Positions 1-35,100 of a DNA stretch of 64,000 nt are shown here, piece after piece. A program made the translations under genes and the position numbers. The notes under the pieces are model-generated. The model was not told where the DNA came from, ran no database searches, and saw only the letters and a list, made by a program, of their open reading frames with translations. Each line of letters begins with the position of its first letter. Position 1 is the first letter of the stretch. This stretch comes from Bolinopsis microptera (taxonomy: Eukaryota; Ctenophora; Tentaculata; Lobata; Bolinopsidae), in assembly GCF_026151205.1 (NCBI RefSeq), contig NC_087084.1, forward strand, positions 1,960,312-2,024,311, given 5' to 3'.

Positions 1-1176
1 CCGAGGTAAGGGTCTAGCTGCCTTCCTCAAGTAATGTTACCATGGTAACACTACCATATAAGGTAATGTTACCATGGTAACCATGCTATCTAACACCCAC
101 CTGACACACTAATCTCTGTCAGGATGCACCGAGGTAAGGGTTTAGCTGCCTTCCTCAAGTAATGTTACCATGGTAACACTACCATATAAGGTAATGTTAC
201 CATGGTAACACTACCATATAACGTAATGTTACCATGGTAACCATGCTATCTAACACCCACCTGACACACTAATCTCTGTCAGGATGCACCGAGGTAAGGG
301 TTTAGCTGCCTTCCTCAAGTAATGTTACCATGGTAACACTACCATATAAGGTAATGTTACCATGGTAACACTACCATATAACGTAATGTTACCATGGTAA
401 CCATGCTATCTAACACCCACCTGACACACTAATCTCTGTCAGGATGCACCGAGGTAAGGGTCTAGCTGCCTTCCTCAAGTAATGTTACCATGGTAACACT
501 ACCATATAAGGTAATGTTACCATGGTAACCATGCTATCTAACACCCACCTGACACACTAATCTCTGTCAGGATGCACCGAGGTAAGGGTTTAGCTGCCTT
601 CCTCAAGTAATGTTACCATGGTAACACTACCATATAAGGTAATGTTACCATGGTAACACTACCATATAAGGTAATGTTACCATGGTAACCATGCTATCTA
701 ACACCCACCTGACACACTAATCTCTGTCAGGATGCACCGAGGTAAGGGTCTAGCTGCCTTCCTCTAGTAATGTTACCATGGTAACACTACCATATAAGGT
801 AATGTTACCATGGTAACCATGCTATCTAACACCCACCTGACACACTAATCTCTGTCAGGATGCACCGAGGTAAGGGTCTAGCTGCCTTCCTCAAGTAATG
901 TTACCATGGTAACACTACCATATAACGTAATGTTACCATGGTAACACTACCATATAACGTAATGTTACCATGGTAACACTACCATATAAGGTAATGTTAC
1001 CATGGTAACCATGCTATCTAACACCCACCTGACACACTAATCTGTCAGGATGCACCGAGGTAAGGGTCTAGCTGCCTTCCTCAAGTAATGTTACCATGGT
1101 AACACTACCATATAAGGTAATGTTACCATGGTAACCATGCTATCGAACACCTACCTGACACACTAATCTCTGTCAG
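1..1176 (+). repeat. Nested tandem array of decoy 3' splice sites in an SF3B1 intron
   Basis: The unit is 128 bp, or 160/190 bp when extra 32-bp sub-repeats are present. Each unit ends with the same acceptor (CTCTGTCAG) and the first ~36 nt of the SF3B1 exon that genuinely starts at 1177. Decoy exon starts are at 123, 283, 443, 571, 731, 859 and 1049, with a partial copy at position 1. In each decoy the exon copy breaks off after the Leu-Lys codons into an in-frame TAA. The sub-repeat contains the perfect palindrome GTTACCATGGTAAC, present about twenty times. Each exon copy also holds GAG|GTAAGG, a good 5' splice-site match. The array continues beyond the left edge of the window. Confidence 0.93.
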
Positions 1177-4100
1177 GATGCACCGAGGTAAGGGTCTAGC
1201 TGCCTTCCTCAAGGCTATTGGTTATCTTATCCCGCTTATGGACGCAGAATACGCCAGATACTACACTCAGGAGGTGATGTTGATTCTGATTCGAGAGTTC
1301 CAGTCCCCTGACGAGGAGATGAAGAAGATCGTGTTGAAGGTACGTGTAGTCAACAGCTACATAGCAACAGCTACATAGCGACAGCTACATAGCAACAGCT
1401 ACATAGCAACAGCTACATAGCAACAGCTACATAGCAACAGCTACATAGCAACAGCTACATAGCAACAGCTACATAGCAACAGCTACATAGCAACAGCTAC
1501 ATAGCAACAGCTACATAGCAACAGCTACATAGCAACAGCTACATAGCAACAGCTACATAGCAACAGCTACATAGCAACATCTACATAGCAACAGCTACAT
1601 AGCAATTAGCAACATAGCAATTAGCAACAGCTACATAGCAGCAGCTAACGTAGCTCTCATCATTTGAAAATGTTATTTGACACATTTCTGTAAGGGGATT
1701 TCAAAAAGGTGGATGGCTAATATTTTGATGAATTGATATTTTGATGAATTATATTAAAGGAAAGGCGACTATTAAGATATTGTTCAGGTAGTAAAGCAGT
1801 GTTGTGGTACTGATGGTGTAGAGAGTCAGTACATCAGGGAGGAAATACTTCCAGAGTTCTTCAGGTTAGTCGTTACTATGGTTACTATTTACTGTATTTA
1901 CTGTATATTTTAATACTATTTACTGTATTTTGGTAGGGACTATTTACTGTATTTTGATCTCAATATCTCCCAGCCTCTATTTTAATTAACATTCTGTTTA
2001 TAATTCCAGGAATTTCTGGAATCAGAGAATGGCACTTGATCGTAGGAATTACAGACAGTTAGTTGACACAACTGTAGAACTCGCTAACAAGGTTTGTCAT
2101 TTAGCTAACCCCTCAATTTCGTTTACTCTACCTTAATCTAGCTCAGTTTAATTCGGAATATAATTAAACTTATAATTCAATAATTTCATTAAATATAAAC
2201 TTATTTTAATTACTTTAATTATTTTAATTTAATTAAACACACCAGGTAGGAGCAGCTGAGATAATAGTGCGCGTGGTGGATGACCTGAAGGATATAATGT
2301 ATAATGTATAATGTATATTGTATAATGTATAATGTATAATGTATAATGTATATTGTATATTAAACACACCAGGTAGGAGCAGCTGAGATAATAGTACGCG
2401 TGGTAGATGATCTGAAGGATGAGAACGAGCAGTACCGTAAGATGGTGATGGAGACGATAGAACAGATCCTGACCAACATGGGAGCTACTGATATTGATAA
2501 TAGGTTGGAGGAACAGCTTATAGATGGTATCCTCTACGCTTTCCAGGTAATTAGTAATTAGTAATTAGTAATTAGTAATTAGTAATTAGTACATGGGGGC
2601 TACTGATATTGATAATAGGTTGGAGGAACAGCTTATAGATGGTATCCTCTACGCTTTCCAGGTATTTTCAGTTTTACATTGTCCGTTATTCCTGTAATTA
2701 TTCCTTTCGTCAGAAAATATTTCTTAATTTGTCACTGACTCGACGGTAACTTTACGCTAGAGAAGCATAAGGTTAGTTAGGGTTTGATTTGAAATGCTTA
2801 ACTTTCGTTTACTTCATTTGCTTCTGCGGCATTTTAATTGTCCAGATATTATACCAATGAAGACAGAACTGATAAAACTAAAATTCACAAAGAAAATTAA
2901 AGTACAAAGTATCAAAATATGACTGCCAACTACCATCTTAGTAACGTTTCTTAATGGAAAAACTGAATATTTTAAAAAGTCGTAGCTTTCAATCAACAGC
3001 AGACTGCTTTACTACATTTGGATAAAAATTGGCAGAAAATTGCGCCAAAAGAAAGTACAGTGAATAAAAGTATTAAGGTATCAGTCTTGGACAAGCAGCC
3101 CCAAATAAAGGGAGTTTGTATCAACGCTCCCTCCTTAACTTCAAGACACTCTACAGCAATCTCCCCACTTAATGCTTGTACCCAGCAAGCGTACGCTCGA
3201 AGAACCTTACTTACGGCTATGAGTTGAACAGGAAGTGTCAAGAAAAGGTATTTGGAGTGACAGTCATCAACCCCTCTGTCTCTCTTAACGTTGGTCAGCC
3301 AGAGTTTAGTGAGGAATACCCTGGAGTTGATGACCACCGCTAGGCCGGCTATAACAGCCATTAGTGTTGCGTTCAAGAGGACCAGCCAGTCGGATTTAGT
3401 TGCGTATTTATCAGCATAGAAATACTCCAGGAAGAGCTCAACCCCATCTTCAAATATCAGAGCGATGAGAGTTATCTTACTTCTGTTCACCAGGGCTACT
3501 GCTTGTATACACTCCTCCAAGATACGGCGGTTTGAAGATGGGGAATCTGTCAGTTTGGTGAGAACCTTTGATTGGTTGCAGATGACATAGTTACATTGGA
3601 GAACCAAGAAGGCTTTCAAACATCCGAATATGGAGAACACGAGTATAGCATTGTTGACAGCTTTATTCCTCGTGATCCGGTTATCTAGGAGGTTCCCTGT
3701 GGCCAGTTCAAGCTTGTAGAAGTAACTCAAGTCAAGGAAAACATCCAGACAGTCGTAAAGCATGTAGGCTACAGGTAGGACCCACCAGTACACTATAAAT
3801 GAGATCTTCAGTGCTCCACGCTGATCTGTTACACAGGCAAGGCACTTCTGGATACACCCCAGGATATCAGTGTTTGCTGGGAAAGTGTCGAGGTGGAACA
3901 AAAAGGAGTGGTATGTTCTCCAGACGCTTCTAGTCATGTAAACAATCACTACAAAATAGATCACTGCGACAAAAACCGTTGGCAAAATTACAATTTTCAG
4001 ATGTATAAAATCAGTTTCAGTCATCCAATCTCTGGGTTCCCACGCTTTGTGAACTCCACAAAACGTCACGTTGTTTTTTCCAAAGCTAACACAGTTTTGA

Positions 4101-5948
4101 GTATTGTCCTTGTCCATTTAGCTTGTCTATTTGTCTATCTGCTTAGTGGACGAGGGATAATAAGATCAGTATTTTGTATGCAATAGTCATGGGGGGGGGG
4201 GGGGGGGGGGGGGGGGGCTTTACATTGTCCGTTATTCCTGTAATTATTCCTTTCGTCAGAAGATATTTCCTTATTTGTCACTGACTCAATACAGCGGTAA
4301 CTTACCGTTAGTTAGGGTTTGATTTGAAATGTATTATAACTTTCGTTTACTTCATTTGCTTCTGCGGCATTTTACTTGTCCAGATATACCAATGAAGACA
4401 GAACTGATGAAAACTAAAATTCACAAAGAAAAATGTAAGAAAATTAAAGTACAAAGTATCAAGACATGACTGCCACTGCCAACTTAGTAACGTTTCTTAA
4501 TGGAAAAACTGAATATTTAAAAAAGTCGTTCAATCAACAGCAGACTGCTTTACTACACTTGGATAAAAATTGGCAGAAAATAGCGCCAAAAGAAAGTACA
4601 GTGAATAAAAGTATTAAGATATCAGTCTTGGACAAGCAACCCCAAATAAAGGGAGTTTGTATCAATGCTCCCTCCTTAACTTCAAGACACTCTACAGCAA
4701 TCTCCCCACTTAAAGCTTGCACCCAGCAAGCGTACGCTCGAAGAACCTTGCTTACGGCAATGAGTTGAACAGGAAGTGTCAGGAAGAGGTATTTGGAGTG
4801 ACAGTCATCAACGCCTCTGTCTCTCTTAACGTTGGTCAGCCAGAGTTTAGTGAGGAATACCCTGGAGTTGATGACCACTGCTAGGCCGGCTATAACAGCC
4901 ATTAGTGTTGCGTTCAAAAGGACCAGCCAGTCGGATTTAGTTGCGTATTTATCAGCATAGAAATACTCCAGGAAGAGCTCAACCCCATCTTCAAATATCA
5001 GAGCGATGAGAGTTATCTTACTTCTGTTCACCAGGGCTACTACTTGTATACATTCCTCCAAGATACGGCGGTTTGAAGATGGGGAATCTGTCAGTTTGGT
5101 GAGAACCTTTGATTGGTTGCAGATAACATAGTTACATTGGAGAACCAAGAAGGCTTTCAAACATCCGAATATGGAGAACACGAGTATAGCATTGTTGACA
5201 GCTTTATTCCTCATGATCCGGTTATCTAGGAGGTTCCCTGTGGCCAGTTCAAGTTTGTAGAAGTAACTCAAGTCGAGGAAAACATCCAGACAGTCGTAAA
5301 GCATGTAGGCTACAGGTAGGACCCACCAGTACACTATAAATGAGATCTTCAGTGCTCCACGCTGATCTGTTACACAGGCAAGGCACTTCTGGATACACCC
5401 CAGGATATCAGTGTTTGCTGGGAAAGTGTCGAGGTGGAACAAAAAGGAGTGGTATGTTTTCCAGACGCTTCTTGTCATGTAAACTAATCACCACAAAGTA
5501 GATCACTGCGACAAATACTGTTGGCAAAATGACAATTTTCAGATGTATAAAATCAGTTTCAGTTATCCAATCTCTGGGTTCCCACGCTTTGTGAACTCCA
5601 CAAAACTTCACGTTGTTTGTTCCAAAGCTAACACAGTTTTGAGTATTCTCCTTGTCCATTTAGCTTGTCTATCTGCTTAGTGGACGAGGGATAATAAGAT
5701 CAGTATTTTATATGTAATAGTCATGGGGGGTGGGGGTAAAATAAGGTGAGGTTATATGAAGTTGTAACACAATTGTCATAGCCGATATCTCAAATTATCC
5801 CAGAATAAATCAAAGTTGAGATAAACTCTAACATCAATCGAGTTTATTAAACGTAATATATTTATTACTATTAAGCGGACAATAAATGATCATCATGTAA
5901 CAGATTCATTGAAAGACACAATATTTTAAACAGATCGCTCATGCACTC

Positions 5949-5990
<42 letters not shown>

Positions 5991-8900
5991 TGTTTAATAA
6001 ATGCCTGGTTAAAATGTGTAAACGAAAGAAAGTCTGCTTATCATCCTGCTAATAAGATTATTTCCAAAATGTGTGATGTCACAAAATTACATAAGCATAA
6101 ATGTTTAATATCGACTATATCATGATAAAGTTCAATCAGTGAACATTTTTTATTTTAGTACTGGAACCCATCGATCAGTCTGATTGGCTTACTGACCTCT
6201 GAATCTGACTACGAAATTAACACTAGAGTTGTGTTCGGATTACAATAATATTTCACATGTTACCGCTCAGATTCACTTACTAACCCTCCTTCCGTCTCCA
6301 GGAACAAACCACCGAGGATGTGATAATGCTGAACGGATTCGGTACCGTAGTTTCCTCTCTTGGTATCCGAACAAAACCTTATCTACCCCAGATCTGTGGT
6401 ACAATTCTGTTCAGGTAAAATCCGGATTGAAGTATTGTTTATGAGTCGCATGGTTGCAATGTATTCTTGTGTAAAATAGTATTGATCCCGTTTGATGCTC
6501 TTATCAGGAAAGGAATTTACTCTATTCCGTTCAGGCTGAACAACAAAACTGCTAAAGTACGTCAACAAGCAGCAGATCTGATATCTCGTATTGCCCCGGT
6601 GATGATGGTGTGCGGAGAGGAGAAGCTACTCGGACATCTGGGTGTGGTACTGTACGAGTACCTAGGGGAGGAGTATCCGGAGGTACTGGGCTCCATTCTC
6701 GGGGGACTTAAAGCTGTGGTTAATGTCATTGGAATGCACAAGATGACACCTCCTATCAAAGATTTGTTGCCCAGGTTAGTTGATGATTGTTTTTAGGATA
6801 ATTGTTATTTCTCAAAGTTAATGGGAATAGACCATGCTGACCCACCAGATGAATTTCTCAAAGTAATTTACGCACTATAAGACAATTCAGGAGAACAATG
6901 AAAACGGTATAACAAATCCCTTTTTCACTCAATGAACACAGAATTGCCATTGGGAGCACTCTTTAACACACGAGAAGCACCATTTTATATGTCTACATTA
7001 TTGAATATTTATTCTGTTTACAAAAGTATTGTGATTGAAATGTAAATGTGTTCAGGTTGACTCCTGTCCTGAAGTTTACAAAAGTATTGTTATTGAAATG
7101 TAAATGTGTTCAGGTTGACTCCTATCCTGAAGTTTACAAAAGTATTGTTATTGAAATGTAAATGTGTTCAGGTTGACTCCTATCCTGAAGTTTACAAAAG
7201 TATTGTTATTGAAATGTGAATGTGTTCAGGTTGACTCCTATCCTGAAGTTTACAAAAGTATTGTGATTGAAATGTAAATGTGTTCAGGTTGACTCCTATC
7301 CTGAAGTTTACAAAAGTATTGTGATTGAAATGTAAATGTGTTCAGGTTGACTCCTATCCTGAAGTTTACAAAAGTATTGTGATTGAAATGTAAATGTGTT
7401 CAGGTTGACTCCTATCCTGAAGTTTACAAAAGTATTGTGATTGAAATGTAAATGTGTTCAGGTTGACTCCTATCCTGAAGTTTACAAAAGTATTGTGATT
7501 GAAATGTAAATGTGTTCAGGTTGACTCCTATCCTGAAGTTTACAAAAGTATTGTGATTGAAATGTAAATGTGTTCAGGTTGACTCCTATCCTGAAGTTTA
7601 CAAAAGTATTGTGATTGAAATATAAATGTGTTCAGGTTGACTCCTATCCTGAAGTTTACAAAAGAATTGTGATTGAAATGTAAATGTGTTCAGGTTGACT
7701 CCTATCCTGAAGTTTACAAAAGTATTGTGATTGAAATGTAAATGTGTTCAGGTTGACTCCTATCCTGAAGTTTACAAAAATATTGTTATTGAAATGTAAA
7801 TGTGTTCAGGTTGACTCCTATCCTGAAGTTTACAAAAGAATTGTGATTGAAATGTAAATGTGTTCAGGTTGACTCCTATCCTGAAGTTTACAAAAGTATT
7901 GTGATTGAAATGTAAATGTGTTCAGGTTGACTCCTATCCTGAAGTTTACAAAAATAGTGTTATTGAAATGTAAATGTGTTCAGGTTGACTCCTATCCTGA
8001 AGTTTACAAAAGAATTGTGATTGAAATGTAAATGTGTTCAGGTTGACTCCTATCCTGAAGTTTACAAAAGTATTGTTATTGAAATGTAAATGTGTTCAGG
8101 TTGACTCCTATCCTGAAGTTTACAAAAGTATTGTGATTGAAATATAAATGTGTTCAGGTTGACTCCTATCCTGAAGTTTACAAAAGAATTGTGATTGAAA
8201 TGTAAATGTGTTCAGGTTGACTCCTATCCTGAAGTTTACAAAAGTATTGTGATTGAAATGTAAATGTGTTCAGGTTGACTCCTATCCTGAAGTTTACAAA
8301 AATATTGTTATTGAAATGTAAATGTGTTCAGGTTGACTCCTATCCTGAAGTTTACAAAAGAATTGTGATTGAAATGTAAATGTGTTCAGGTTGACTCCTA
8401 TCCTGAAGTTTACAAAAGAATTGTGATTGAAATGTAAATGTATTCAGGTTGACTCCTATCCTGAAGTTTACAAAAGTATTGTGATTGAAATGTATAGTAA
8501 ATGTATAGTAAATGTATAGTAAATGTATAGTAAATGTGTTCAGGTTGACTCCTATCCTGAAGTTTACAAAAGTATTGTTATTGAAATGTAAATGTGTTCA
8601 GGTTGACTCCTATCCTGAAGTTTACAAAAGTATTGTTATTGAAATGTAAATGTGTTCAGGTTGACTCCTATCCTGAAGTTTACAAAAGTATTGTTATTGA
8701 AATGTAAATGTGTTCAGGTTGACTCCTATCCTGAAGTTTACAAAAGTATTGTTATTGAAATGTAAATGTGTTCAGGTTGACTCCTATCCTGAAGTTTACA
8801 AAAGTATTGTGATTGAAATGTAAATGTGTTCAGGTTGACTCCTATCCTGAAGTTTACAAAAGTATTGTTATTGAAATGTAAATGTGTTCAGGTTGACTCC

Positions 8901-11900
8901 TATCCTGAAGTTTACAAAAGTATTGTTATTGAAATGTAAATGTGTTCAGGTTGACTCCTATCCTGAAGTTTACAAAATTATTGTTATTGAAATGTAAATG
9001 TGTTCAGGTTGACTCCTATCCTGAAGTTTACAAAAGTATTGTTATTGAAATGTAAATGTGTCCAGGTTGACTCCTATCCTGAAGTTTACAAAAGTATTGT
9101 TATTGAAATGTAAATGTGTTCAGGTTGACTCCTATCCTGAAGTTTACAAAAGTATTGTTATTGAAATGTAAATGTGTTCAGGTTGACTCCTATCCTGAAG
9201 TTTACAAAAGTATTGTTATTGAAATGTAAATGTGTTCAGGTTGACTCCTATCCTGAAGTTTACAAAAGTATTGTGATTGAAATGTAAATGTGTTCAGGTT
9301 GACTCCTATCCTGAAGTTTACCAAAGTATTGTTATTGAAATGTAAATGTGTTCAGGTTGACTCCTATCCTGAAGTTTACAAAAGTATTGTTATTGAAATG
9401 TAAATGTAAGAGTTCAGTAATTACACTTTTCAATACGTTAGTGCTCGCTTATCAGTTACTTATCATTACGTTGATAAGACTTGCTTGGATTTATGGATTC
9501 CTGGTTCGCTAAGATTTTAATTTTTTTGATAAGCTTCTAAATCATATTCGTCTTTCAACACAAGACTGTCAGTCTTCTAGAATTTTGTTTTGATTTGTGT
9601 ATTAAGCTGATGTATTTAATCTTACTTCCAGCTCTATAATTTCGTGTGGAGTATATTTTTAGAGTTATTTAGGTTTTATATTAGCAGATTTAGGTATATA
9701 ATTATTCTATATAATTGTATGTATAAATACTTGAGTAAACGTTAACCAGTAAACAAAGCTGGCTCCCAAACAAACATGTGTTCAGGTTGACTCCTATCCT
9801 GAAGTTTACAAAAGTATTGTTATTGAAATGTAAATGTAAGAGTTCAGTAATTACACTTTTCAATACGTTAGTGCTCGCTTATCAGTTACTTATCATTACG
9901 TTGATAAGACTTGCTTGGATTTATGGATTCCTGGTTCGCTAAGATTTTAATTTTTTTGATAAGCTTCTAAATCATATTCGTCTTTCAACACAAGACTGTC
10001 AGTCTTCTAGAATTTTGTTTTGATTTGTGTATTAAGCTGATGTATTTAATCTTACTTCCAGCTCCATAATTTCGTGTGGAGTATATTTTTAGAGTTATTT
10101 AGGTTTTATATTAGCAGATTTAGGTATATAATTATTCTATATAATTGTATGTATAAATACTTGAGTAAACGTTAACCAGTAAACAAAGCTGGCTCCCAAA
10201 CAAACATGTGTTCAGGTTGACTCCTATCCTAAAGAACAGACACGAGAAAGTACAGGAGAATTGTATAGACTTGGTAGGAAGGATCGCTGACAGAGGCTCT
10301 GAATATGTGTCAGCCAGGTCAGTTACCCGCTACTATAATTAAGTGATTAAGTAACTAATTGATTATTTACTGTAATTATTAAATGAATACATAATTTACC
10401 CATTATTGTGGGCATATCTTCAGTTTTCAATGCTTAGATGCTTATGTAGGTTGTGGTCTATATGATTGATTAATTATATATGATTGTTTCATAACGGGAT
10501 TGGCTAATAACATAAATAGTTAATTAGTAGTTGTGCTAAATTGTTAATTTTTCGCCAGAGAGTGGATGAGAATATGTTTTGAGTTACTGGAACTGCTCAA
10601 AGCCCACAAGAAGGCCATCAGAAGAGCCACGGTCAATACTTTTGGTTACATTGCTAAAGCTATAGGTTCGTTCATTTTATTTTTATTCATTTATTTTATT
10701 CAGCCGAATTCTAAATCTCTCGGATATCATTTTAAAATTCGCCGTTGTTTTGTTTTCTAAAGGAGAAGAAAAATAGAAAAGGTATCTCCTAAATTACTAG
10801 CACATGAACCAAAACATCTAAAACTTGAAAATAAATAACTAAAAACATTCCCCACATTCCTCCAGGACCTCACGACGTGTTGGCAGTACTCCTCAACAAC
10901 CTCAAAGTGCAAGAGAGACAGAACAGGGTGTGTACAACGGTTGCCATAGCGATTGTCGCGGAGACCTGTTCTCCCTTCACTGTCCTACCCGCACTGATGA
11001 ACGAGTACAGAGTCCCGGAGTTAAACGTGCAGAACGGAGTCCTCAAGAGTCTCAGTTTCCTCTTCGAGTATATTGGTACGTGTCTTTTTAGGAGTCCTGT
11101 AATGCAGGCAATGCTGGACTCCTTTTTGCCGGGTTTCATCTTATAATTCCGTTATTTTACACAAAAAATAACTTAACTTGTCTGTAACAGATTATCATTT
11201 AGTAATGTCAGGAGTCCTGTAACCATTGTAATGATAATGCTCGCTATTACTCATAACATAACTTATAACATTGTAATAAGACTTGAATGACCTCTCTAAA
11301 TTGTTTTATCAAAGGTGTTACATTTATTAAAATTATCTCTAATTACTCTCTAATTACTCTGCAGGTGAGATGGGTAAGGATTACGTGTACGCTGTGACCC
11401 CACTTTTAGAAGACGCCCTCATGGACAGAGATCTCGTCCACAGACAAACAGCTTGTGCCGCTATCAAGCACATGTCTCTAGGTGAGCCTGACATACTGAA
11501 CCATGATTAGGATTTAGGAGTGTAAATAACGGGAACTTTGAGTGGTCAATGTTCTCAGTGAACCTTAATACAAATAAATTGTCCCAGGAGTGGTTGGGTT
11601 GGGGTGCGAGGACGCTCTGATTCACCTTCTTAACTACGTTTGGCCCAACATATTCGAGACGTCCCCTCACGTTATAAACGCAGTTATTGAAGCTATTGAA
11701 GGGTTGCGATGTGCTCTGGGTCCTGTCAAAGTTCTGCAGTACACTCTTCAGGGACTCTTCCATCCTGCTAGAAAGGTTAGAGTTCTCACGTGGTATGACG
11801 TCACGTCACGTGGTATGACGACACCAGACACGTGATGACGTCATGTGGTGTGATGAAATGTCCCGCTAGAAAGTTTAAAAGTTGCTCAAATTATTTTCCG

Positions 11901-16630: not shown

Positions 16631-17709
16631 AACAGAGTCCTTTGACTTTGTTATTTTAAAATTGAAGAATCGTTTGGCCACAACTCACTTCGTTCGCATT
16701 ATAGATTCACATTCACTTTCACCATCACGCACAGTACAGGGTCATACCTCAATACCAAATTATTATAGGGCACAAGAACAAATTTGTTTACAATTATCAA
16801 AATTTGTTGAGCCCAGCAGCTTTCTTTCCTCTCTTCCCCCGTCGTCTGGAGTGTGTGATTTTTGTCGATGTCCGAGCTCTTATATTTATCTTTAGTTTAT
16901 GGTTAACTTTCTGTGATTGGACTCGGTATTTTCGTCCCGGCCGAGTGGGACGATGCTTGCTCGCCAGTTAAGCTATACTATTGATAACACTAATTTCTAC
17001 AAACTGTAGAATATTAAATATAAAATGTGTCCAGTATGGCGCAAATGCATACTTTGATTATTTTTCGACGCCGTCGAGTTTTAATACTTTCAACACTACT
17101 ATATAACAAATAATTTGAGGATGTCCAATATGTCCATGGCTTGCTAAAGTCAACTGCATCGGGGGTACTATGATGGTCCAGGGGGTGCTGAAACAGAAGA
17201 CTGGCACTCTTAACCTGTTAAGAAGTTAAGTAGTTGTAGTGAATAATGTTTCTGTTTGGCAATGTATAACTCCATTCACACCACAATCCACAATTGGACA
17301 ATTGGACAACCCTGATTAATGTGTAGATAGTGTTGAAAGAATTTTGGACTTAAAACTTGAACATCACTTCTGATAACTTTTGGGGCTGTGCTCCAAGAAC
17401 AGGCTGACATATATGGCTTATGGATTATATATATAATGTATTCTGATTAAATGATAGGGCTTGCCAGTCCAACCACCTCATATTTTTCATACTCACCCAC
17501 TCTCTTGTCCCATGTGTCGTAGTCCGTCAGTCTGTTCAATTTTTCAATCAATCTCTTGAATCATTTTGACTAATCCAGTTTACACTTTCATTGTTTTCCA
17601 CAACAGAACATTTCAAACTGCTTTCTGCTCTTCCTTCTTTTCAGTGAGTGTGCTAGTTGGACGTGAAGGTGCCCCCTGGTCTGCCTGGTACCCCCATTGC
17701 CTCTTCACC
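16631..17709. other. Untranslated DNA upstream of the LINE ORF1
   Basis: No gene seen. Part of it is probably the 5' UTR of the LINE whose ORF1 starts at 17710, but I could not place the element's 5' end or a target-site duplication. Confidence 0.45.
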
Positions 17710-19359: not shown

Positions 19360-19417
19360 TTAATGCCAAAGCTAGAGGCAGATTTTCCCCACGACCACGT
19401 AGATCTATACTTCAGTC

Positions 19418-22400
19418 ATGATAGTTAAATTGATATGCGAAATTTGCTGCTGCTGCAATAAACCTGTACGAGCTGGACACCCTTTCATAATTTGTCAGAT
19501 GTGTGACAAAATAATGCACAAAAAATGCAAAACTAATGACAACATAGTCAAATTTCGAGATGAAATATACTGCAAAGTCTGTATTGAAGCCAACGATATT
19601 ATTCGATACAACCCTTTCTACCAAGCTCCCCACTTTGCTAACAACGGCCTTATTGATGATGAGCCAGTTAATTATATTGAATCTATCTACAACAGCTCAA
19701 AAATTCTTGAAAACTGCAAAACATTCTCCATAACAGAGTTGAATGCCACCACCCTGCCTGGAAATTCAGTCGAATATATGTCCACTTTATTCCTCAACAT
19801 TGATGGGAATGCAACAAACTTTGACAACTTTGCAGTTGAGCAGTCTAGTATAAACCACAAGTTTTCTGTTATTGGTCTTGCAGAAACAAACACTGATGCT
19901 GACAATGGAACACTATATCAGCTCAGTGGATACTCCTCGTGTTACCAATGCCGTTATTTCTGTCAAGACAAAAACCAGTTCAAGGCTAAAGGATCAGGAG
20001 TTTGTCTTTACCTGAAAAACTCTCTAAACTTTAATAAGATTACTGGATTATCTCTCTGTAATGAGCACATAGAATCACTGTTTGTATCTATCACCAGTAT
20101 GAAAGACCCAACCGTTGTAGGGGTTATCTACCGTCCTCCAAACGCATCACTTGAACTGTTTAACGAAGCATATGAACGTATTCTCTCTAAACTGAATGGC
20201 AAGAAGGTATATATCCTTGGGGATTTCAATGTTAACATTTTAAACCACCCATCTTCATCAGAGGACAAATTCCAAGAAATAATATTTAACAATGGCTTTA
20301 TACCAACCATATCAGTGCCAACTCACCATATGCCTGGTTGTTCCAGGACTTGTATTGACAATATCCACACCAATGTATTAGACCAATCCCTTATCTCTGG
20401 TGTCATATCTGACAAGATCTCCCATCACCACCCTATATTCACTTTTGTTAAGCTTTCCCCCGACTCTGTGTCACTATCTGATTCACCAGACAAAATTACT
20501 ATACACTACGACTATAGTAATGCTAACCTAGAGAAGCTCTGTCTTGAAATAGAAAACGATTTGGATAGGTTCCACTACAGTTGTGACACATTTGACTCTT
20601 TTATGCAGCTATTTCAAGAAAAAATAGACTTGTCTTGCAAACTTCTAACTCCAAGAACCACTAAACGTAATAGCATAACCAACCCTTGGATTACCCAGGG
20701 CCTAATTAATTCCATCGAGAAGAAAGCTAGATTGTATTTCGAATGGAAAAAGACTTGTACATTAAAATTACCTGACGGGGATCCGAACAAGCACATTTGC
20801 TACAAGGAATTCGACAAGTTTCTCAAAAGCTCAATAAATATGGCAAAGGCTATGTGCTACACTAGAAAATTCGAAAAGTACAGCATGAACTCTAAAAAGA
20901 CGTGGGAAGTTATTAATGAACTCCGTGGTAAAACTATGTCTCGATGTAAGGACGATTTTGTCATAAACGGTCAGAGAGTTACCTGCAGACGAATAATTGC
21001 TAACAAATTTTGTGAATATTTTACATCTCTTGCAAGTAATCTCAATAAAAATGTACTGTCGAACAATAGTATTTCTCTGGAACCAATTGAATCATTTGCT
21101 CAGTTCATGTCAAATTCAGTATCTGACTCCATTTATCTGGAAGAAACTAATAAAGACGAGATCATCGAGGTGATCAAAGATTTTCAAAATGGCAAGGCGA
21201 GTGACATACCAATAATTGTTGTAAAGAAATCATCAAAGCTTATAGCTGGTACCTTGGCCAGGCTTTACAACACATGTATACAAAGTGGTACATTCCCGAC
21301 TATTTTTAAAACTGGTAAAGTTATTCCCATTTACAAGAAAGACAATAAGGAATGTATCGAAAACTATCGGCCTGTATCAATATTACCTTTATTTGGAAAA
21401 ATTTTCGAGAAGATCATTTACAAACGGCTCTATAATTTCTTCACATCTAAAGGTGTACTGACAGACTCACAGTTTGGATTTAGAAAAGGTCATTCCACCA
21501 CTCATGCTCTACACAAATCTATAGACTCCGTTACAAAGACTCTAGCTGGCAATAAACATGTCTTAGGAATATTCATTGACTTAAGCAAAGCCTTCGACAC
21601 CCTTGACCACAACATTCTTCTAAGCAAATTAAACTCCTATGGTATTAGGGGCACAGCACTTACCTTACTTAAAAGCTATTTGACTAACAGAAAGCAGTAT
21701 GTTATGTATAACGATGTACCATCAGAAACACTGGATGTGAAATTTGGGGTACCACAGGGGTCAATTCTAGGGCCGTTACTCTTCCTACTGTATATGAACG
21801 ATATAGTGAACTGTTTTTCTGACAGTGAGGTGAAATTTGTACTTTATGCTGATGACACTAATATCTTTATATCAGGACCATCTAGAGAAGCAACATACAA
21901 AAAAGCAAACTTAGTTCTTAAACATGTGTCGATTTACATGAAATGTAATCTACTCCATATCAATATGTCTAAATGTTGCTACATCCATTTTAAACCTGCC
22001 TCTGAATATGATGAGACCTGTGCAAGGACCAGACCATTTGCTAACCTGCTAGATGAGTCTAGGTCAATATTCATCGATGGTAAGGTTATTACTAAAGTCA
22101 AGGATACCAAATTCCTAGGTATTGTTATAGATAGTAAGTTAAACTGGGCTGCCCATATGCACTACATTCGTAAAAAACTTCGGTCCATGACTGGTGCAAT
22201 CTGTAGAATTCGACACTCGATACCTGGTGAACTATATTTGAAAATATATAATGCTCTCTTTGAATCACATCTCAGTTATGGTATAAGTGTTTGGGGCGTT
22301 GTCCTTAAAGAACGATCAAATGACAGTCTTTTTATCACACAGAAGCACTGTGTAAGGATCCTTTTTGGTGATCTCGACTCATATTTAGATAAACAATCAA

Positions 22401-22822
22401 CATGTGCACGTACTAGACCGTATGGTATGCAAAAATTAGACCATAAACACTTTGAAAAGGAGCATACAAAACCCATTTTTAATAGACTAAAAATTCTAAC
22501 GGCTCAAAACTTGTACAAATATCACTGCATTTTAGAATTCTCTAAGATTATCAAGTACCACTGCCCCTACTCCCTTTATGAGGCCATCAACATTTCAAAC
22601 CGTGCAACGAGTCTAACTGTTATTCTTCTAAATAAATCAAATACCTTTTTGTTTAATGCAGCCAAGCTTTGGAACACAGTTCATAAAAAAATTTTAACTT
22701 CAAGCAATTGCCTAGAAACTTCCATTAACTTGATAAAATTGAGAACCAAAGCACTATTAGTACAATCACAGGCAGCTGACTTAAAAGATACCTGGACTCC
22801 AACCAATTTTAAATTGCAGTAA
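19418..22822 (+). CDS. LINE ORF2: endonuclease and reverse transcriptase
   Basis: Intact 1134-residue protein. Residues 7-55 form a Cys-rich finger (CEICCCCNKPV, ICQMCD, HKKC, YCKVC) of PHD/RING-like spacing. Residues ~125-350 form an APE-type endonuclease (GLAETNTDADNG, GVIYRPPN, GDFNVNI near 268, SDKISHHHPI). Residues ~640-890 form the reverse transcriptase: FGFRKGHSTTHAL, FIDLSKAFDTLDH (Asp721), GVPQGSILGPLLF, YADD at 810-813. The C-terminal tail after ~1000 (HFEKEHTKPIFN) recurs in the fragment at 16160-16630. All catalytic motifs look intact. It nicks target DNA and reverse-transcribes the element RNA there. Its start overlaps the reconstructed ORF1 stop as ATGA, suggesting termination-reinitiation. 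Confidence 0.96.
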   Translation: MIVKLICEICCCCNKPVRAGHPFIICQMCDKIMHKKCKTNDNIVKFRDEIYCKVCIEANDIIRYNPFYQAPHFANNGLIDDEPVNYIESIYNSSKILENCKTFSITELNATTLPGNSVEYMSTLFLNIDGNATNFDNFAVEQSSINHKFSVIGLAETNTDADNGTLYQLSGYSSCYQCRYFCQDKNQFKAKGSGVCLYLKNSLNFNKITGLSLCNEHIESLFVSITSMKDPTVVGVIYRPPNASLELFNEAYERILSKLNGKKVYILGDFNVNILNHPSSSEDKFQEIIFNNGFIPTISVPTHHMPGCSRTCIDNIHTNVLDQSLISGVISDKISHHHPIFTFVKLSPDSVSLSDSPDKITIHYDYSNANLEKLCLEIENDLDRFHYSCDTFDSFMQLFQEKIDLSCKLLTPRTTKRNSITNPWITQGLINSIEKKARLYFEWKKTCTLKLPDGDPNKHICYKEFDKFLKSSINMAKAMCYTRKFEKYSMNSKKTWEVINELRGKTMSRCKDDFVINGQRVTCRRIIANKFCEYFTSLASNLNKNVLSNNSISLEPIESFAQFMSNSVSDSIYLEETNKDEIIEVIKDFQNGKASDIPIIVVKKSSKLIAGTLARLYNTCIQSGTFPTIFKTGKVIPIYKKDNKECIENYRPVSILPLFGKIFEKIIYKRLYNFFTSKGVLTDSQFGFRKGHSTTHALHKSIDSVTKTLAGNKHVLGIFIDLSKAFDTLDHNILLSKLNSYGIRGTALTLLKSYLTNRKQYVMYNDVPSETLDVKFGVPQGSILGPLLFLLYMNDIVNCFSDSEVKFVLYADDTNIFISGPSREATYKKANLVLKHVSIYMKCNLLHINMSKCCYIHFKPASEYDETCARTRPFANLLDESRSIFIDGKVITKVKDTKFLGIVIDSKLNWAAHMHYIRKKLRSMTGAICRIRHSIPGELYLKIYNALFESHLSYGISVWGVVLKERSNDSLFITQKHCVRILFGDLDSYLDKQSTCARTRPYGMQKLDHKHFEKEHTKPIFNRLKILTAQNLYKYHCILEFSKIIKYHCPYSLYEAINISNRATSLTVILLNKSNTFLFNAAKLWNTVHKKILTSSNCLETSINLIKLRTKALLVQSQAADLKDTWTPTNFKLQ

Positions 22823-23107: not shown

Positions 23108-23292
23108 GGGACTTGGAGTATAAACGACCAAGTTCGCATAAATGCCTACCCAACCAAGAATTTAGGAGGCAAGGGTGGGTGCGTAAACTTTACGGTCTGC
23201 ACTCTCCGATCCTGTATCACCCTGGATTCTTTTTGACGTATTTTTGTATTAGGTATATACCTTCTATCCATTCTCTTGCTACTCCAAGTCCC
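23108..23292. repeat. 185-bp inverted-repeat element beside the LINE 3' end
   Basis: Perfect 13-bp inverted ends: GGGACTTGGAGTA at 23108-23120 and TACTCCAAGTCCC at 23280-23292. The interior contains a second pairing (ACCCAACC / GGGTGGGT type). It could be a small MITE or a structured LINE 3' terminus; no target-site duplication was recognised. Confidence 0.6.
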
Positions 23293-26115: not shown

Positions 26116-29100
26116 ATGGTGAAGAGGAACACGATAGAAGTTGACGATGCAGAGGACCTTGTTGATGATGACCTTGTCGATGATAACCTGGTAGATGAAG
26201 AACTTGAGATTCTTTTGCGGGTGAAGCTTTTTTAGAATCTATCAGCTGTTGTGACCAATTTCCCCATTTCGATGGAAGTTATCACTTGTTCCAATAATTG
26301 GAAGATTCTAAAGTTACATGTTTTATCATATAAAAGTATCTCTTGTATTCTTTGTATTCCCTGTAAAACTTATACATCTTGTATTTCATTGAACTCTGTC
26401 TATTCTTGTCATCTTCTTATTCCATTTCAAATTCATATCAAATTCTTATCAAATTCCTATATTATTGACAAGGTTGCATAATGCATTGTTAGATTCTATG
26501 ATTACAAATCGTAAATGTAAATTCAACACTATATGATTTGTTTTGCCTGCAAATTTGCGGAAGAGTTTATTAAACTGTAATATCTTGATTTCAGGAACAA
26601 GCGACTAAAGAAGCAGAAAATCAAATCAATGAGCCTGTTCCTGCCCCAGCTCCGAAGCTTGTCTCCAGGCAAACCCAAACTGTTAATCTGACTATATCTG
26701 ACCGAGAAATGAACATGACCCAGTTGCAGGTTCCAGGGGCAACGTCAGCCAGAACACTGACAAGGCAACTCAGAACTGGGAGAGGGACCATTAAGCGATC
26801 TACTATGCAAAAATCTGGTAGGAACTTTGCAAACTTCTCGATAAGGCCTTCATGGGTGTTGTTATGTCTTGGTTAGCTGTAGGTGACAAGATCACATGTT
26901 TCATAATTGTTTAAAAACTATTTGTAATGTTTGCTGATTTTTCAGCCATGAATGTGCATATGGTGACAGATGAAGACGAAGAAGAAGTAGACACTTTTCA
27001 TAAAATGGAAGCTGGGATATCTGATAACAGGTATAGGATAATTTTAATTTTACCCAAACATAGTTGTGCATGTGGTCAATTGGCCAAATAAGCCAGCACC
27101 TATAGAAACCATAATAAATCGTTATTGTATAATACAGCTAAAAAAATCATAACCCTAAGTCTAATTTCTAACCATTGATCATTATATGGCTGCTATATGA
27201 ATCTCTGATTAATTCCTTTTTTAACAAGACTGCTCCCATATTTAAAAATAATTAATAACCGTTACACTTGTACTCCTTACTTACAATGTAAATTAAGAAA
27301 ACATTTCAGCCTATGTTCAATGTAATATTTACATAATCACATGTGCTGCATAATTGAGCAAGAGAATCTTGCATAGCATCAACTTTGTTTGCATGTTAAT
27401 CTATAACCCCCTACCCCTTAACACTAAATACATTGGGTTGCAGGACTATTTTTGAATGATAAAAAATAACATCACCTATTATACTTGTTGTAATCATATT
27501 GCTTGCTGATATGTTTTATCCATCACTTGAAAAGAGCGCAGTCGGAAGCTGGTGACACAGTCTCCGTTAACCTGATGGCTAGTAGAGCAAGCAAGCGGAC
27601 TATGAGCGGCAAAATGGCCGGTCGGTTTAAATCGTTTAACAGGAGTTTGTCCCGGACATTCACTCTGAATCGTCTGCGCCCCAAGGAGTCCGGAGAACGG
27701 TAGTAGTTACGCATTCTAGCATTTTGAACATGTACTTGCATGCTGCATCAAATATACTTGCATGGATATTTGCATGCTGGATTTTATCATTTGTTTATTT
27801 AAGGATCATATAAAATTACATGCTATTATAATATTATTACGGTGTACAAGGTTAACTGAGTTAATGAAAAGTTATTTCTCATTTCTCAACTATAAATATT
27901 ATTGCAAAACCTGGCAGCATATAACTTAACTTACGTTTATTATTTTGAAAGACTCAGTTACTTCGATACTATTATATATTTACATAGGGCGCTGATGTTC
28001 GAGTGTTCTTTGAACAAGTCGAACGGGGAAGGCTGTTAAAAGCAAAAATTCACACAATTGCCTCCTTAGTCTGTTACGTATGCTTTTAACTTTAATTTAG
28101 TAACTGGTATACTTACTATTGAGGTTTTCTTGCTGTGAATTATGGCTGCCAGCTTACGTTAATAACATGTACAGCTAAGTCTTTAATGTGCATCCTGCAT
28201 GGCTGCATGTTTTTACATTTAACACTTTTCAGATTGATATTTTTGAAGATGATATAAAAGTTATCACTATACTTTTCATCAATAATATGTAGTATCAAAT
28301 CATTTAACGTGTAAGAAACTAGATAACCATAGTTTCTTAAAATTGGGAGAGCAAAGAGTTTAACTCACACAGTCTCTTCAAATCTTGTCTTGGAGAATCA
28401 GAAATGATAACATGTTACTCATCGTGCTTTTATTTGTTAAAGCCCATACATTACAGCATTACATACATTACAGCATATATTTTGACTTTTCTCTCTATAC
28501 AAGAGAATCTAAATGTTCTTATACAGTTGCAACATATTATAGCTGTCCGAATAGTCGAGACGTCCAGCCCCAGAATTCAGAACATCATGCCTGAGGACCA
28601 TTATCCTAACCTTCACCCTAACAGCCTAATCCTAACAGCATAATCCTAACCTTAGCCCTAACCCTAACCCTAAGATTGGCCCTAACCTTAACCCTAACCT
28701 TAGCCTTGACCCCAACCCTGACCCTAACCCTAATCCTAACCCTAGCCTTACTGAGGTACAATGTTTTGGGGCACCACGACTTGGGGCTGGACGAGTTACA
28801 ATGTTATTCTGGATCATAACTTTATATTTCACAGAATACGAAGGGACAACAAACGTGCGCATATGGGGTGGTTCCAACTCCTGGTATACGACCTGAAACT
28901 GGCTATAGAGCGACAGAAACAGGAGCGCTATGAGTTTCCTCTCTTCTTGAAGAGTATTAAAACTATTCAGGTTAGATTGGTCAACTAGCGACTGTGAACT
29001 GCAGCTAGCTCGTTTTAAATTCAGAGAATAATATATTGCGATTAATTAAGGTGATTAAGTTTAGATAACTTAATCAGTTAATTAATTATTCCAGGGAGAG

Positions 29101-32100
29101 CTAGGATCATCAACAGCAGCCCTCTTTCTCTTCGTAAGATACCTCCTCATGATTAACATTGGTTCTGCTATCTTCTGGGTTGGATTCGTTGTAATTCCAC
29201 AGGTATTAAATAAATTTAAATAAATAAACAAGTTCTGACATTTATTACACGCTTCGACATTAAAATATCGAATTAAAAAAGATTTAAGTCATACAAGCGA
29301 GACTTGACATAAAACACTGTGTGTTCTCCTTTAAAGATCACTGCTGGGTGTTGAATACCTATTTTAACTCTTCTAACTTCTTTTTGGGTCAACTATTCAC
29401 TTATAGGCTATATCTAAATTGTAATACTATACGTACTTTGGGAATTGATAAGAAAGAAAATGTATACAATTTAAAACTTAATGTTTGTTTTTACCGCAGT
29501 TGTTTAACCAAGAATACCCGTTAATTGTCGAAAACGTGTTTATATTACAAACTATACCATTTCTGCAATAATTTGAAAACAGTTAACTACTCTTGAATAA
29601 GTATCTCACAATTAAATAATTAATTAAACGTTATTAATTAATTAAACGTTCTCTTTAAATAACAAATTCCCAGGCAATATATTTCGACTATTCTGGTCTG
29701 TCTGAAGAAAGCGATCCCTTTACCGGAATACAGCTGTTTCTAGGAACGGGCCGGGTGGCTAAGTCTTGGCTATTTTTCAGCGGTACTTTATTCCAATATA
29801 TTGATTATGATCTTTAAAGAATTGATATTGAGTTACTTTTCATTAATTGTAAGTTACTGAACCGTATAAAATTGAGCGTAAGATAATTAAATCATTATGA
29901 TTGATTTATCTATATTACTTTCCTCCCTGTGTCAATGGGCTTGTTAGTATATTGTATATAATTTGTATATTATATAATATACGTTCAAATTATAATACTG
30001 TATATATTATTTGTATTATATATATATAAAATAAACTTACTTGGGCTACTATTGGGTTACTTTTAAACGTTAATTTTGACAATTGACTTCGTTTAAAATA
30101 CTATTATTATCAATTAATTATAGTCGTGTCGATTGAGTCTTAAGTGGATCCAATTGAGCCTTAAGTGAATCCGTATTCCATCTGTCAAATATATTTAAAT
30201 ACATATAAACCTATAAAATGTATAAATAAATGATAAATAATAAAAGTAAATACCCTTCTACCCAGGATACGAAGAAGTGGTTAACGACAGTTACATGATG
30301 TATGTAGCCTACCTCGTCATCCACTTCACCTCAATCTTCGTTGTTTTCTTCGCTATTCTCCAGACAATCGGTAACGACACGATACGGGACGGCTCAAAGT
30401 CACAAGACCAGGTCAGGTCTCTAGCGATGAACTTGTTCGCGTCCTGGGACTACAGTATCAACTCACATGATGCGATTGAGAAACAACAGAAATCAACCGG
30501 TTCAAACTTCAAGGATTTGCTCTGTGAGCTGACAAGCGCTAAGAAGGAGCGCACTATCAAGGAACAGCGGATTATCCTCGCGCTGCGTATTCTAGCGTGG
30601 TTCATCTGGGCAATCCTAATCGCTGGTGCCATCACCGCTATTATATTTGTAGTGGACCGCTCTGATTCTGAAGAAGGCGGCTTCTTCAACGTATACGGAC
30701 CGACCATTGCCTTGACAGCCATAAACGGAGCTGTACCATTCCTAATGCAGCAGCTAACACTGATTGAGAGCTATGACATAGGACGCACTGAGCAGTATGT
30801 GACCCTGACACGTGTTTATGTAATGAGGATGATTAGTTTGATCACCTTTATTGTTACTCTTATAAAGGCTGCTGGTGATTCCGGGTCATGTCCGCAGCTC
30901 TACTGGGGTCAGGTTAGTCAAAAAATAAATATTTCTAATAAATGAATATGTTTAGTAAATAGATATCATGTTTATGTAATATCTGGATCGGAACATTATT
31001 TCTTAGACGCATAGTTGTAATGTTTCTGGGGAATAATTTATATTGATCCCGTTTGTTGCGACAAGGAAAAGGCTCCTACCAAGGAATTATTGTACGTTTC
31101 AATTGCTACCCACTATAAAGTGCCTAACATTAACCATTCCCCTGAAGGAGTTCTACAAGCTGGTAATAATAAACACTCTGAGTAATTGTGCTGCTCTCTC
31201 CAAGTACCCAGCCTTCTACTACCTCCTCAACAAGAAGACAGAGGTGGACCTACCCAGCACTCTTATGTCTCTCATCTACTTCCAGGTAAACTAGTAAACT
31301 GGTGGTGGGGGGGGGGGGGGCACACATGTCTCTCATCTACTTCCAGGTAAACTAGTCAACTGGTGGGGGGGGGGGGGCACACATGTCTCTCATCTACTTC
31401 CAGGTAAACTAGTCAACTGGTGGGGGGGGGGGGGCCCGGGGCACACATGTCTCTCATCTACTTCCAGGTAAACTAGTCAACTGGTGGTGGGGGGGGGGCA
31501 CACATGTCTCTCATCTACTTCAAGGTAAACTAGTCAACTGGTGAGGGGGGGCACACATGTCTCTCATCTACTTCCAGGTAAACTAGTCAACTGGTGGGGG
31601 GGGGGGGGGGGCACACATGTCTCTCATCTACTTTCAGGTAAACTAGTCAACTGGTGGTGGGGGGGGGGCACACATGTCTCTCATCTACTTCCAGGTAAAC
31701 TAGTCAACTGGTGGTGGGGGGGGCACACATGTCTCTCATCTACTTTCAGGTAAACTAGTCAACTGGTGGTGGGGGGGGGGGCACACATGTCTCTCATCTA
31801 CTTTCAGGTAAACTAGTCAACTGGTGGTGGGGGGCACACATGTCTCTCATCTACTTCCAGGTAAACTAGTCAACTGGTGGTGGGGGGGCACACATGTCTC
31901 TCATCTACTTTCAGGTAAACTAGTCAACTGGTGGGGGGGGGGGGCACACATGTCTCTCATCTACTTTCAGGTAAACTAGTCAACTGGTAAACTGGTGGGG
32001 GGGGGGGGGGCACACATGTCTCATCATCTCATGGTGCAGGTGTTGTTTTTTAGTCTGTGGTATGGGACGGATCTTGTTTATTTTAGTCAGTATGGCTATT

Positions 32101-35100
32101 TGGTTATTTAACAAAATCCACTATATTATTATTATAAGCTTAAATCTGGGTTTTACTATCAGTTTCTAATATACTTAAACAATTTAGGGCTGCATTTGGT
32201 TTGGAAATCTCTTCTGTCCTCTACTCAGTGCAATGGGAATAATCTCAAACCTCATCTACTTCGCCATATCGTCGGTAAGAATCTTCTTAATCTTACTTTC
32301 CCATTAATATGGAATTTCAAGGATAATGTTGAGATTTGAAGTTACGCGGTATCTTAAAGTAGTGTTAAAATCTAAAAATTACTCAAGATTGAAACTTATA
32401 TAAATTATGGAAATTTTCTTTAGGCACTCATCAAGAGCTTTGTATAAATTATGAAAATTTTTTCCAGGCACTAATAAAGAGCTGTTGCCAGCCACCCACC
32501 AAGCGTTACAACTCCAATAACTCCATGTTTTTCAACTTGTTCCTCGCTATAACGATTATATTAATGTTTGGAAGCACGGTTTTCATCATTGTTAGCATCT
32601 CGGTGGATTGTGGCCCCTGGAAGAGCCCCAAGTAAGTTATTGAATATAAATTAAAGTAAGTTATTGAATATAAACTAAAGTAAGTTATTGAATATAAATT
32701 AAAGTAAGTTATTGAATATTAAAATTATAAATGATTTTTGATTTGAAACTTTTACAAAATAGCAAATATACAAATGTACAGCAAATCGAACAAACATATT
32801 TAAATTGAATATATATACGTAGTTTATTATAAAATATAAAATATTATTCTCGAGTAATACTCTGAATCATGGTATCTTAAAACTTTAAGTCTATCAAGTT
32901 CAATGCATTATCACCAATGACTGTAAAATATTGTTTGCACTTTGTAAAGTGAGGTTTGGCACATCATTACTTACTTAGTACTTTAGTATTGAACAAAAAA
33001 CGGCATCAAATAGAGTGCATCGGACAAATCACGTGTTAACCTATAAAAACGCCCCTATCCTATCACGTGTTAACCTATAAAAACGCCCCTAACTTATCAT
33101 CATTTAATACACGTGCAGATTTAGCTCAGTAGACCATCTCGTCACGTTTTGATAGTCATAGTTGTCATATAAATTAGGCAAATATTAGTGATCAATGTGA
33201 GTATGGTGATCACATTATTAGTATAGTGATCAATGTTAACCGAGGCTTCTTGGTCAACATGAAAAAATGAAATACTACCAGTGTTTAGCTGGCAAATTCT
33301 ATGCTTTGATGATAACATGCGACTTAGCAGCATTTAGCGTTACGTTCACTTTGTCAATGAAAATAAATAAGGAATGGTACTAAGCCTAGTTTTATCAACC
33401 CTATGTTGTGACCAACTCATCAGTTTGCCAGTGCTCACCAACTCATCAGTTTGCCAGTGCTCACCAACTCATCAGTTTGCCACTTACCAGCGATTTGAAT
33501 TTATTTAAGTACAGCTTTGTATGCAGGCACTTTAGCTGTTTTTTGATAACACTATCATTAACCTTTTTAACATCACTTTTAGCTCTACAAATTTACTATA
33601 TGTTTGACACTCTGAAATAAAAGATGAAAGTGTTTTTCGTAGTTGTGATCGTTCTGGTATTCATCACTTTGGCTGAAGGAGGTAAGAAAGGAAAGCTGGA
33701 TCCAGCAGCCCGCAAAGCAGCCCGCAAAGCAGCTAAGGGCAGAGAAAAGTTGTAAAAAGAACATCAAGAAGTTTGAAGGATGTCTGAAGAATGGGTACAA
33801 GTCCGATGGATGTGCCTCTGGAGATGGTGAATTGAGCAAGAAGGACTCGAAGAAGTGCGCTAAGTTCGGAAAGAAACTAAAGAAATGTGATTACGAATGC
33901 ACGAAACCAGAGCCTACGGAGCCAAAACCAGAGCCCACGGAGCCTAAACCAGAGCCCACGGAACCGCCAGTACCAGAACTTCCGTACAATCTTGACTGCA
34001 AAAGAGCTGGATTTGACTTCTGGGGCGCTGACATAAGAAACTTTCGGGCCGCTAGCTTTGAGGATTGCGCCACAGCATGTAGCCAAGAAGTGGGATGCAA
34101 ATCTATCACTGTTAGGAATTCAGACAACCACTGCTGGCTGAAGAATAAGAACAGTGGTGACACTGGACCAGTTATCAACGCTGCTTTAACGAGCATGAAC
34201 ATGAAATGTGATCTTTCTGACCTGGATAGCAGCTGCAAAAGAGAAAACTACGATTTCTGGGGAGCAGATCTGAGAAATTTCAACTCACAAAGCTTTGACG
34301 ACTGTGCAAGACACTGCCGTGACACCGAGGATTGTCAATCCTTCACTCTTAGAAAATCAGATAATTACTGCTGGCTGAAGAGAAAGAGAGGAGGACAGAG
34401 TGGACCTAATCCTAATGGTGCCCTTATCAGCATGAACATTGACTGTGCTCCATCACACGGTCTCCAAGCTTCCGACAAGTCATGTGCTCTGGATGGATAC
34501 GACTTTTGGGGGGCTGATCTCCGGAACTTTGACTCTGATAGTTACGAGGCGTGCGCCACCGCTTGCAGTGATGCTGCTGACTGTAAGTCCATTACCTTGA
34601 GAAAATCTGATAACCATTGTTGGTTAAAGACGAAACTTGGTGGAGAGACTGGACCCTCCCCAAATGGAGGTCTGATCAGCAGGAATATGGAGTGTGACAC
34701 GTCACAGTTAGACCTGAGCTGTGCAAGGGACAACAAGGATTTCTGGGGGGCTGATCTGAGGAACTTCAACTCAGGAAGTCTGGATGAGTGCGCTCGAGCA
34801 TGCAGGATGGGACAGGATTGCCAGTCCTTCACTCTTAGAAAATCAGACAATTACTGCTGGCTGAAGAGGAAGAGAGGAGGGCAGAGTGGACCTAATCCTA
34901 ATGGAGCTGTTGTTAGCATGAACATTGATTGTTCTCCTGAGTTTAACCCTGCTTCCAGAGATTGTGCCAGGGATAACTTTGACTTTTGGGGAGCCGACCT
35001 GAGGAACTTCAGATCTGCCAGCTACGAGGACTGTAACCAGAGCTGTTTTGATGCTGCTGACTGCAGATCTTTTACTTTGAGGAAGAGTGATAACTACTGC

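Follow-up and report, generated by a model that had tools for sequence, protein, structure and literature searches.

Human F7 carries a 37-bp repeat in intron 7, and human CBS carries a 31-bp VNTR at exon 13/intron 13; in both, each unit contains a copy of the exon's donor site. These are single human loci, unlike the recurrent cases described here. In amphioxus, repeats known as "mirages" occur, and their original description is reportedly a 2002 paper in NAR. Mirages are minisatellite-like duplications of intron-exon boundaries, and the loci named include Adh3 and BflGb6, the latter having 3 repeat units in one haplotype and 6 in another (PMC3087553). Regular splicing is described as undisturbed in their presence; as regular splicing goes on, the units are said to undergo concerted evolution inside the cluster, with the boundary copy left out (PMC3087553). 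Internal tandem repeats at exon-intron boundaries are also described for human genes in segmental duplications (PMC2812944); like the repeats studied here, they are minisatellites that alter gene structure at these boundaries, but they were studied in recent human paralogs and are tied to new introns. Finally, intron gain by tandem duplication of AG/GT segments (the slash marks the splice junction throughout) was proposed by Rogers in 1989, as cited in PMC3087553 and PMC2812944. Rogers-type gain likewise duplicates splice signals, but it would make a new intron, whereas each array considered here occupies one end of an intron that already exists.

The boundary arrays of the ctenophore Bolinopsis microptera are another case of mirages, from a new lineage, with larger arrays and with a sampled rate. 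The original prediction knew of no named phenomenon that matched them; the amphioxus mirages do (PMC3087553). In both animals, the tandem units consist of the intron end, the splice site, and the exon edge, acceptor and donor boundaries are both affected, many copies keep the AG or GT, and the authentic copy joins the exon. The unit length is 10–160 bp in amphioxus and 44–190 bp here, plus one unit of 430 bp. At the same time, up to ~41 extra copies are present here, compared to the 3 and 6 units given for BflGb6, and the rate could be sampled in this other lineage, at ~4–6% of junctions. Splicing, length variation, and somatic instability are reported for the amphioxus mirages, whereas the present arrays are known from the sequence of one assembly.

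Copied exon edges in SF3B1 and TMC

The window, i.e., the whole stretch of 64,000 nucleotides that was analyzed, corresponds to bases 1960312–2024311 of contig 13 (genome of 264.65 Mb in 232 contigs) and contains the 3′ half of SF3B1 (+ strand) plus a TMC gene. Human SF3B1 (solved structure) aligned colinearly with the hand-joined exons over residues 2–352 of 352 (E = 8e-210), and this match fixed the true junctions at 1176/1177, 2372/2373, 2546/2547, and 10215/10216. For the spliced TMC piece, a match to PF07810 was obtained (E = 2.2e-14). The arrays, single copies, and exons concerned are collected in Table 1.

Table 1 Copied exon edges in the window and the exons to which they belong
Position	Strand	Feature	Details or basis
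1..1176	+	Array 1, SF3B1 acceptor side, 128/160/190-bp units	Unit CTCTGTCAG/GATGCACCGAGG..., 37 exon nt
1177..1339	+	SF3B1 exon fed by array 1	Hand splicing, human SF3B1 match
2232..2293	+	One acceptor-edge copy of the exon at 2373	14 intron + 48 exon nt, 3 mismatches
2373..2546	+	SF3B1 exon with both acceptor edge and donor edge duplicated	Hand splicing, human SF3B1 match
2591..2664	+	One donor-edge copy behind a GTAATTA array	71 exon nt (1 mismatch) + 3 intron nt
7016..9407	+	Array 2, 58-bp acceptor-edge units (tgttcag/GTTGACTCCTATCCT), ~40 copies	Repeat and copy analysis
9386..10236	+	430-bp tandem duplication; second copy reaches 19 nt into the true exon	Copy comparison
10216..10317	+	SF3B1 exon with its acceptor edge copied in array 2	Hand splicing, human SF3B1 match
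31148..31285	+	TMC exon, PF07810 region, true donor after 31285	Gene finder, PF07810
31265..31988	+	TMC donor-edge array (ATGTCTCTCATCTACTTCCAG/GTAAAC), true copy first, 12 extra, G-run in units	Repeat and copy analysis
32399..32483	+	44-bp duplication, acceptor edge of the TMC exon at 32468	16 exon nt, 2 mismatches
32630..32719	+	24-bp array whose start precedes the donor of the TMC exon at 32468 by 2 nt	Only 2 exon nt common

A copied exon edge together with its splice site had been predicted at seven boundaries. This was found at six of the seven, with 16–71 exon nt in common, and failed at 32656, where the common part is 2 exon nt; the 32656 array is an intronic 24-bp array starting at the donor, hardly an exon-edge copy. 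The eight copies predicted at 1–1176 are present (seven whole and one cut within the window), but eight is not the total number, as 10 more copies occupy ~1.3 kb upstream. Array 1 as a whole comprises 19 junction copies including the true one, with spacings of 128, 160, and 190 bp. Array 2 comprises 42 junction copies including the true one, spaced by 58 bp, once by 96 bp, and then by 430 and 430 bp, so that the expected number of ~41 agrees with the 41 extra copies counted before the acceptor at 10215. Likewise, the ~12 donor-side copies expected in TMC correspond to 12 extra copies after the true donor at 31285 (13 copies in all with the true one, spacing 53–64 bp). With one or two copies compared in each case, the common exon edge shows 0 mismatches over 37 nt in array 1, 1 mismatch over 19 nt in array 2, and 0 mismatches over 21 nt in the TMC donor array. 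The single copies anticipated at 2246, 2591–2661, and 32424 were also located, with the lengths and mismatches given in Table 1. Further cases occur in the upstream half of SF3B1, before the window, namely at the donors at -11272, -9609, and -8510 and at the acceptor at -2128.

The mean splice site score of the copies, compared to that of the true site, was 10.1 vs. 10.3 for array 1, 4.5 vs. 4.9 for array 2, and 5.4 vs. 5.4 for the TMC array. The copy at 2246 is stronger than its true site (6.0 vs. 5.0), and those at 2661 (5.2 vs. 6.6), 32424 (3.5 vs. 6.6), and 32656 (5.6 vs. 6.4) are weaker. Over a 28-nt junction segment, the identity among the internal copies of array 2 was 0.995, against 0.962 between the internal copies and the true one; the corresponding values were 0.992 and 0.996 for array 1 and 0.975 and 0.982 for the TMC array. 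Reading in frame from the true exon past its junction, into the intron that follows or upstream into the one before it, met a stop within 1–75 nt in all seven cases of the window, and because of these stops, only the joined copy would give the protein that is conserved in comparison with human SF3B1, in agreement with the prediction that this copy alone is productive. Note that the array-1 units, both at 1–1176 and upstream, also carry a donor-like GAG/GTAAGG 11 nt behind the acceptor, which is why 18 array-1 copies were called as 11-nt exons by the gene finder.

Several other features of the window may be recorded here. Two near-identical antisense copies of a gene-like ORF (~310 aa) lie on the - strand in an SF3B1 intron, at 2993–4085 and 4559–5659; the pair is a tandem duplication of ~1.55 kb, and no Pfam match was found for the second copy (4559–5659). 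A retroelement-like block on the + strand, at 17607–22819, includes a 567-aa ORF part in which a 2OG-Fe(II) oxygenase domain was recognized (PF13532, E = 3.4e-17), followed by an ORF of 1139 aa that is endonuclease/reverse transcriptase-like, as judged by eye. Interstitial telomere-like CCTAAC repeats are located at 28605–28750. The stretches 46395–48158 and 57523–58426 are similar, with MORN-like ORFs (by eye) and with AAAGTGAAACCA and GTTACCTCTTA arrays, and are probably a duplication ~10–11 kb apart. An Ig-domain protein with a long EG/GE coding repeat, derived from a CTTCTC array, is encoded on the - strand at 59122–60417.

Frequency of copied junctions and of array starts

In total, 364 kb was read: 84 kb of contig 13 (the window, extended upstream by 20 kb), 200 kb of contig 1 (C1), and 80 kb of contig 7 (C7), with the start points of C1 and C7 fixed before any sequence there was seen. 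TRF repeats covered 24, 23, and 16% of these blocks, respectively. A home-made HMM gene finder gave 272 exons, 152 of which were kept as confident; those outside SF3B1 and TMC are predictions. Exons were dropped if they scored ≤ 8, were < 45 nt, consisted mostly of repeat, belonged to genes 15 and 17, or were the retroelement exons at 17.6–21.4 kb. The set still contains gene 18, an element that bears an endonuclease, and perhaps further exons of retroelements, all of which add false boundaries; the TMC exon 32188–32274, missed by the HMM, was entered by hand. Six predicted introns with a length divisible by three and an uninterrupted reading frame were removed together with ten boundaries (286 to 276). 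The removed introns included two that had first been scored as junction arrays, at C1 78411 and 127750; the arrays there (78411–79521 with 33-bp units and 127342–127750 with 30-bp units) are open in frame and probably represent coding protein repeats.

Some of the predicted exons were checked by homology. Of 16 pieces compared with Pfam, four lacked a match at E ≤ 0.001, not counting two others, one from SF3B1 and one from TMC, that had been identified by another route. Homology to ADP-dependent glucokinase gave an alignment that runs across two junctions and starts at a third; with its three junction arrays, the ADPGK-like gene concerned (C1, 118–126 kb) ranks second to SF3B1 in the sample. 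Elsewhere, a SPARC_Ca_bdg match runs across one junction, a DDRGK match ends at one, and C2H2 finger matches flank one on both sides, with the finger across the junction judged by eye. Six of the eight junction-spanning array starts in C1 and C7 have homology support, of differing strength; the remaining two are C7 5604, where one copy lies at a distance of 451 nt, and C7 51998, at a predicted junction.

The comparison of exon edges with intron interiors that had been proposed as a check (13 exon + 2 intron nt, exact matches) gave 17 copied junctions among 282, i.e., lower than the 11.9% obtained in the interior. When a junction-centered 24-mer was looked for within 1.5 kb, copies were found for 19/280 boundaries, and the same search at comparison points gave 1343/5465 in predicted introns, 975/5544 in intergenic DNA, and 71/5874 inside exons. 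In relation to points in the same introns, 19/282 junctions were copied against ~13% of the points, and in five of five probe designs, the junctions (6.0–8.5%) stayed below the interior of the same introns (11.9–15.4%). Duplication recurs on both sides, as had been stated, with 8/140 acceptors and 11/142 donors, counted before two coding-repeat donor cases were dropped; after removal of the six open introns, 17/272 junctions were copied, and 8/188 in C1 and C7. The copied share rose from 2.6% at -60 (exon) to 6.7% at 0, 11.6% at +100, 21.5% at +300, and 25.4% at +900 (intron), and there was no junction peak in this exon-to-intron distance profile of the sample, on which ground strong targeting of the junctions is rejected. 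Chance is rejected as the principal origin of the copies as well, as only 1.2% of exon-internal 24-mers were copied locally.

Long arrays inflate the interior coverage, and only a terminal unit can cover a junction; array starts were therefore counted instead of coverage, as starts per available site, with junction-spanning starts defined by 10–50 exon nt. At the 276 boundaries, 15 such starts were seen against 5.8–6.7 expected. The number was 8/191 against 3.0–3.4 in C1 and C7 only (p = 0.01–0.03, and 0.015–0.034 with the density uncertainty included), and 9/242 against 4.7–5.0 when SF3B1 was left out (p = 0.048–0.084). Earlier versions of the count gave 17 vs. 4.8 and 16 vs. 6.1–7.0, with ratios between 1.9 and 3.5, and the version based on TRF rows gave 15 vs. 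3.6–9.3, with two of the 15 being coding repeats. Additionally, 16 of the 51 genic arrays with units ≥ 28 bp span a junction, although two of these 16 are open coding repeats. SF3B1 is exceptional, with duplication at 7/34 boundaries, the highest number in the sample. The idea that expansion is seeded at splice junctions thus found no excess by the proposed test, but an approximately two-fold excess in the finer count of starts, which is marginal outside SF3B1; such a two-fold junction excess is possible.

Origin of the arrays and competing explanations

Genome searches with the 58-bp unit of array 2 and with the TMC unit gave, among the best candidates scored, 19 and 7 matches, respectively, all at the own locus only. 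This confinement is what local duplication predicts, and a mobile unit common to both arrays is rejected, as each unit matched its own locus only among the best candidates. The array-1 unit joins the local exon edge to a 32-bp minisatellite that has a palindromic core and is dispersed in the genome; a 128-bp query gave at least 208 matches on many contigs, and among the listed ones elsewhere, mainly positions 33–83 were covered. Array 1 is a higher-order unit, in which the exon edge and the 32-bp minisatellite were amplified as one.

The arrays are probably mirages in the plain sense, i.e., ordinary minisatellite tandem duplications, the seed of which straddled an exon-intron junction and which expanded into the intron, and most of the phenomenon is explained by the very high density of minisatellites. 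Duplication of a segment consisting of intron plus exon edge would leave an intact junction, distal on the acceptor side and proximal on the donor side, and since one junction stays intact by geometry, such a duplication could be tolerated without special selection. The copy number could then rise by slippage or unequal exchange. Correct splicing would be kept due to the terminal copy alone being attached to the full exon (exon definition) and in frame; the true junction is the terminal copy of the array. The original prediction had held that repeats stopping a few codons inside exons need a special reason, either seeding or selection for tolerated forms. The stopping follows from geometry, as only the terminal unit can enter the exon, and special selection is not needed, since a tandem duplication that covers a junction will in every case leave one junction whole. 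The junction excess in the start counts and the exceptional position of SF3B1 were counted against the plain-minisatellite reading.

This excess is the ground for a rather unlikely alternative, according to which seeding is biased to junctions and arrays start about twice as often across them as elsewhere in introns, possible causes being DNA damage linked to splicing or transcription, or else short repeats of the AG/GT kind. Junction-spanning array ends are 1.8- to 3.5-fold above expectation, and the density of exonward ends per kb is 2.09 in the last 45 exon nt, compared to 0.91 over the 45 intron nt next to the junction and 1.01 farther in, at +45 to +400; however, 8 of the 26 listed ends have offsets of -1 to -7 and are probably a smear from arrays ending at the junction. 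The excess, marginal by the p values outside the discovery locus, varies in size with the measure of interior density (the TRF local expectation is 7.4–9.3 against the 15 seen). Moreover, slower decay of a selected exonic copy, with the pair diverging at about half the rate, could by itself give up to a two-fold difference. We would give a similarly low probability to the wider proposition that junctions are mild hotspots of minisatellite birth, at two to three times the intron-interior rate, that a steady few per cent of them carry arrays of fully competent decoy sites, and that exon definition, not site strength, selects the copy.

Far less probable is a function of the copies as decoy acceptors in SF3B1, a gene for a branch-site factor, where they would sense U2 snRNP activity and yield unproductive transcripts when it is scarce (autoregulation). 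SF3B1 tops the sample for duplicated junctions, the decoys of its arrays score like true sites, and decoy use would meet stops, but equal anatomy is found in TMC and in ADPGK-, SPARC-, and DDRGK1-like genes, and donor-side cases are as common as acceptor-side ones. It is just as improbable that the arrays are relics of intron creation by the Rogers-type route, which was proposed for the amphioxus mirages (PMC3087553) and would suit the several common junctions that read AG/GT. This route predicts that the intron end equals the upstream exon end and the intron start the downstream exon start, whereas in TMC intron 31286–32187, the one intron checked (by eye), the only exon matched by the array is the upstream one, and no listed repeat covers the final ~150 nt. 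False expansion of the repeats in the assembly has a precedent in one amphioxus mirage that was apparently mis-assembled in the genome draft (PMC3087553); with irregular spacings (58, 96, and 430; 128/160/190; 53–64) and variants interspersed among the units, both unlike a simple copy error, we regard this as the least probable explanation.

As mirages, the arrays constitute a natural experiment on splice-site choice, with tens of acceptors or donors of like consensus strength per intron, one of which is attached to the full exon. They also illustrate how a housekeeping gene such as SF3B1 can gain decoy splice sites from tandem repeats and yet not be disrupted. Should the two-fold junction excess be confirmed, it would suggest that the birth of repeats is linked to transcription or splicing.
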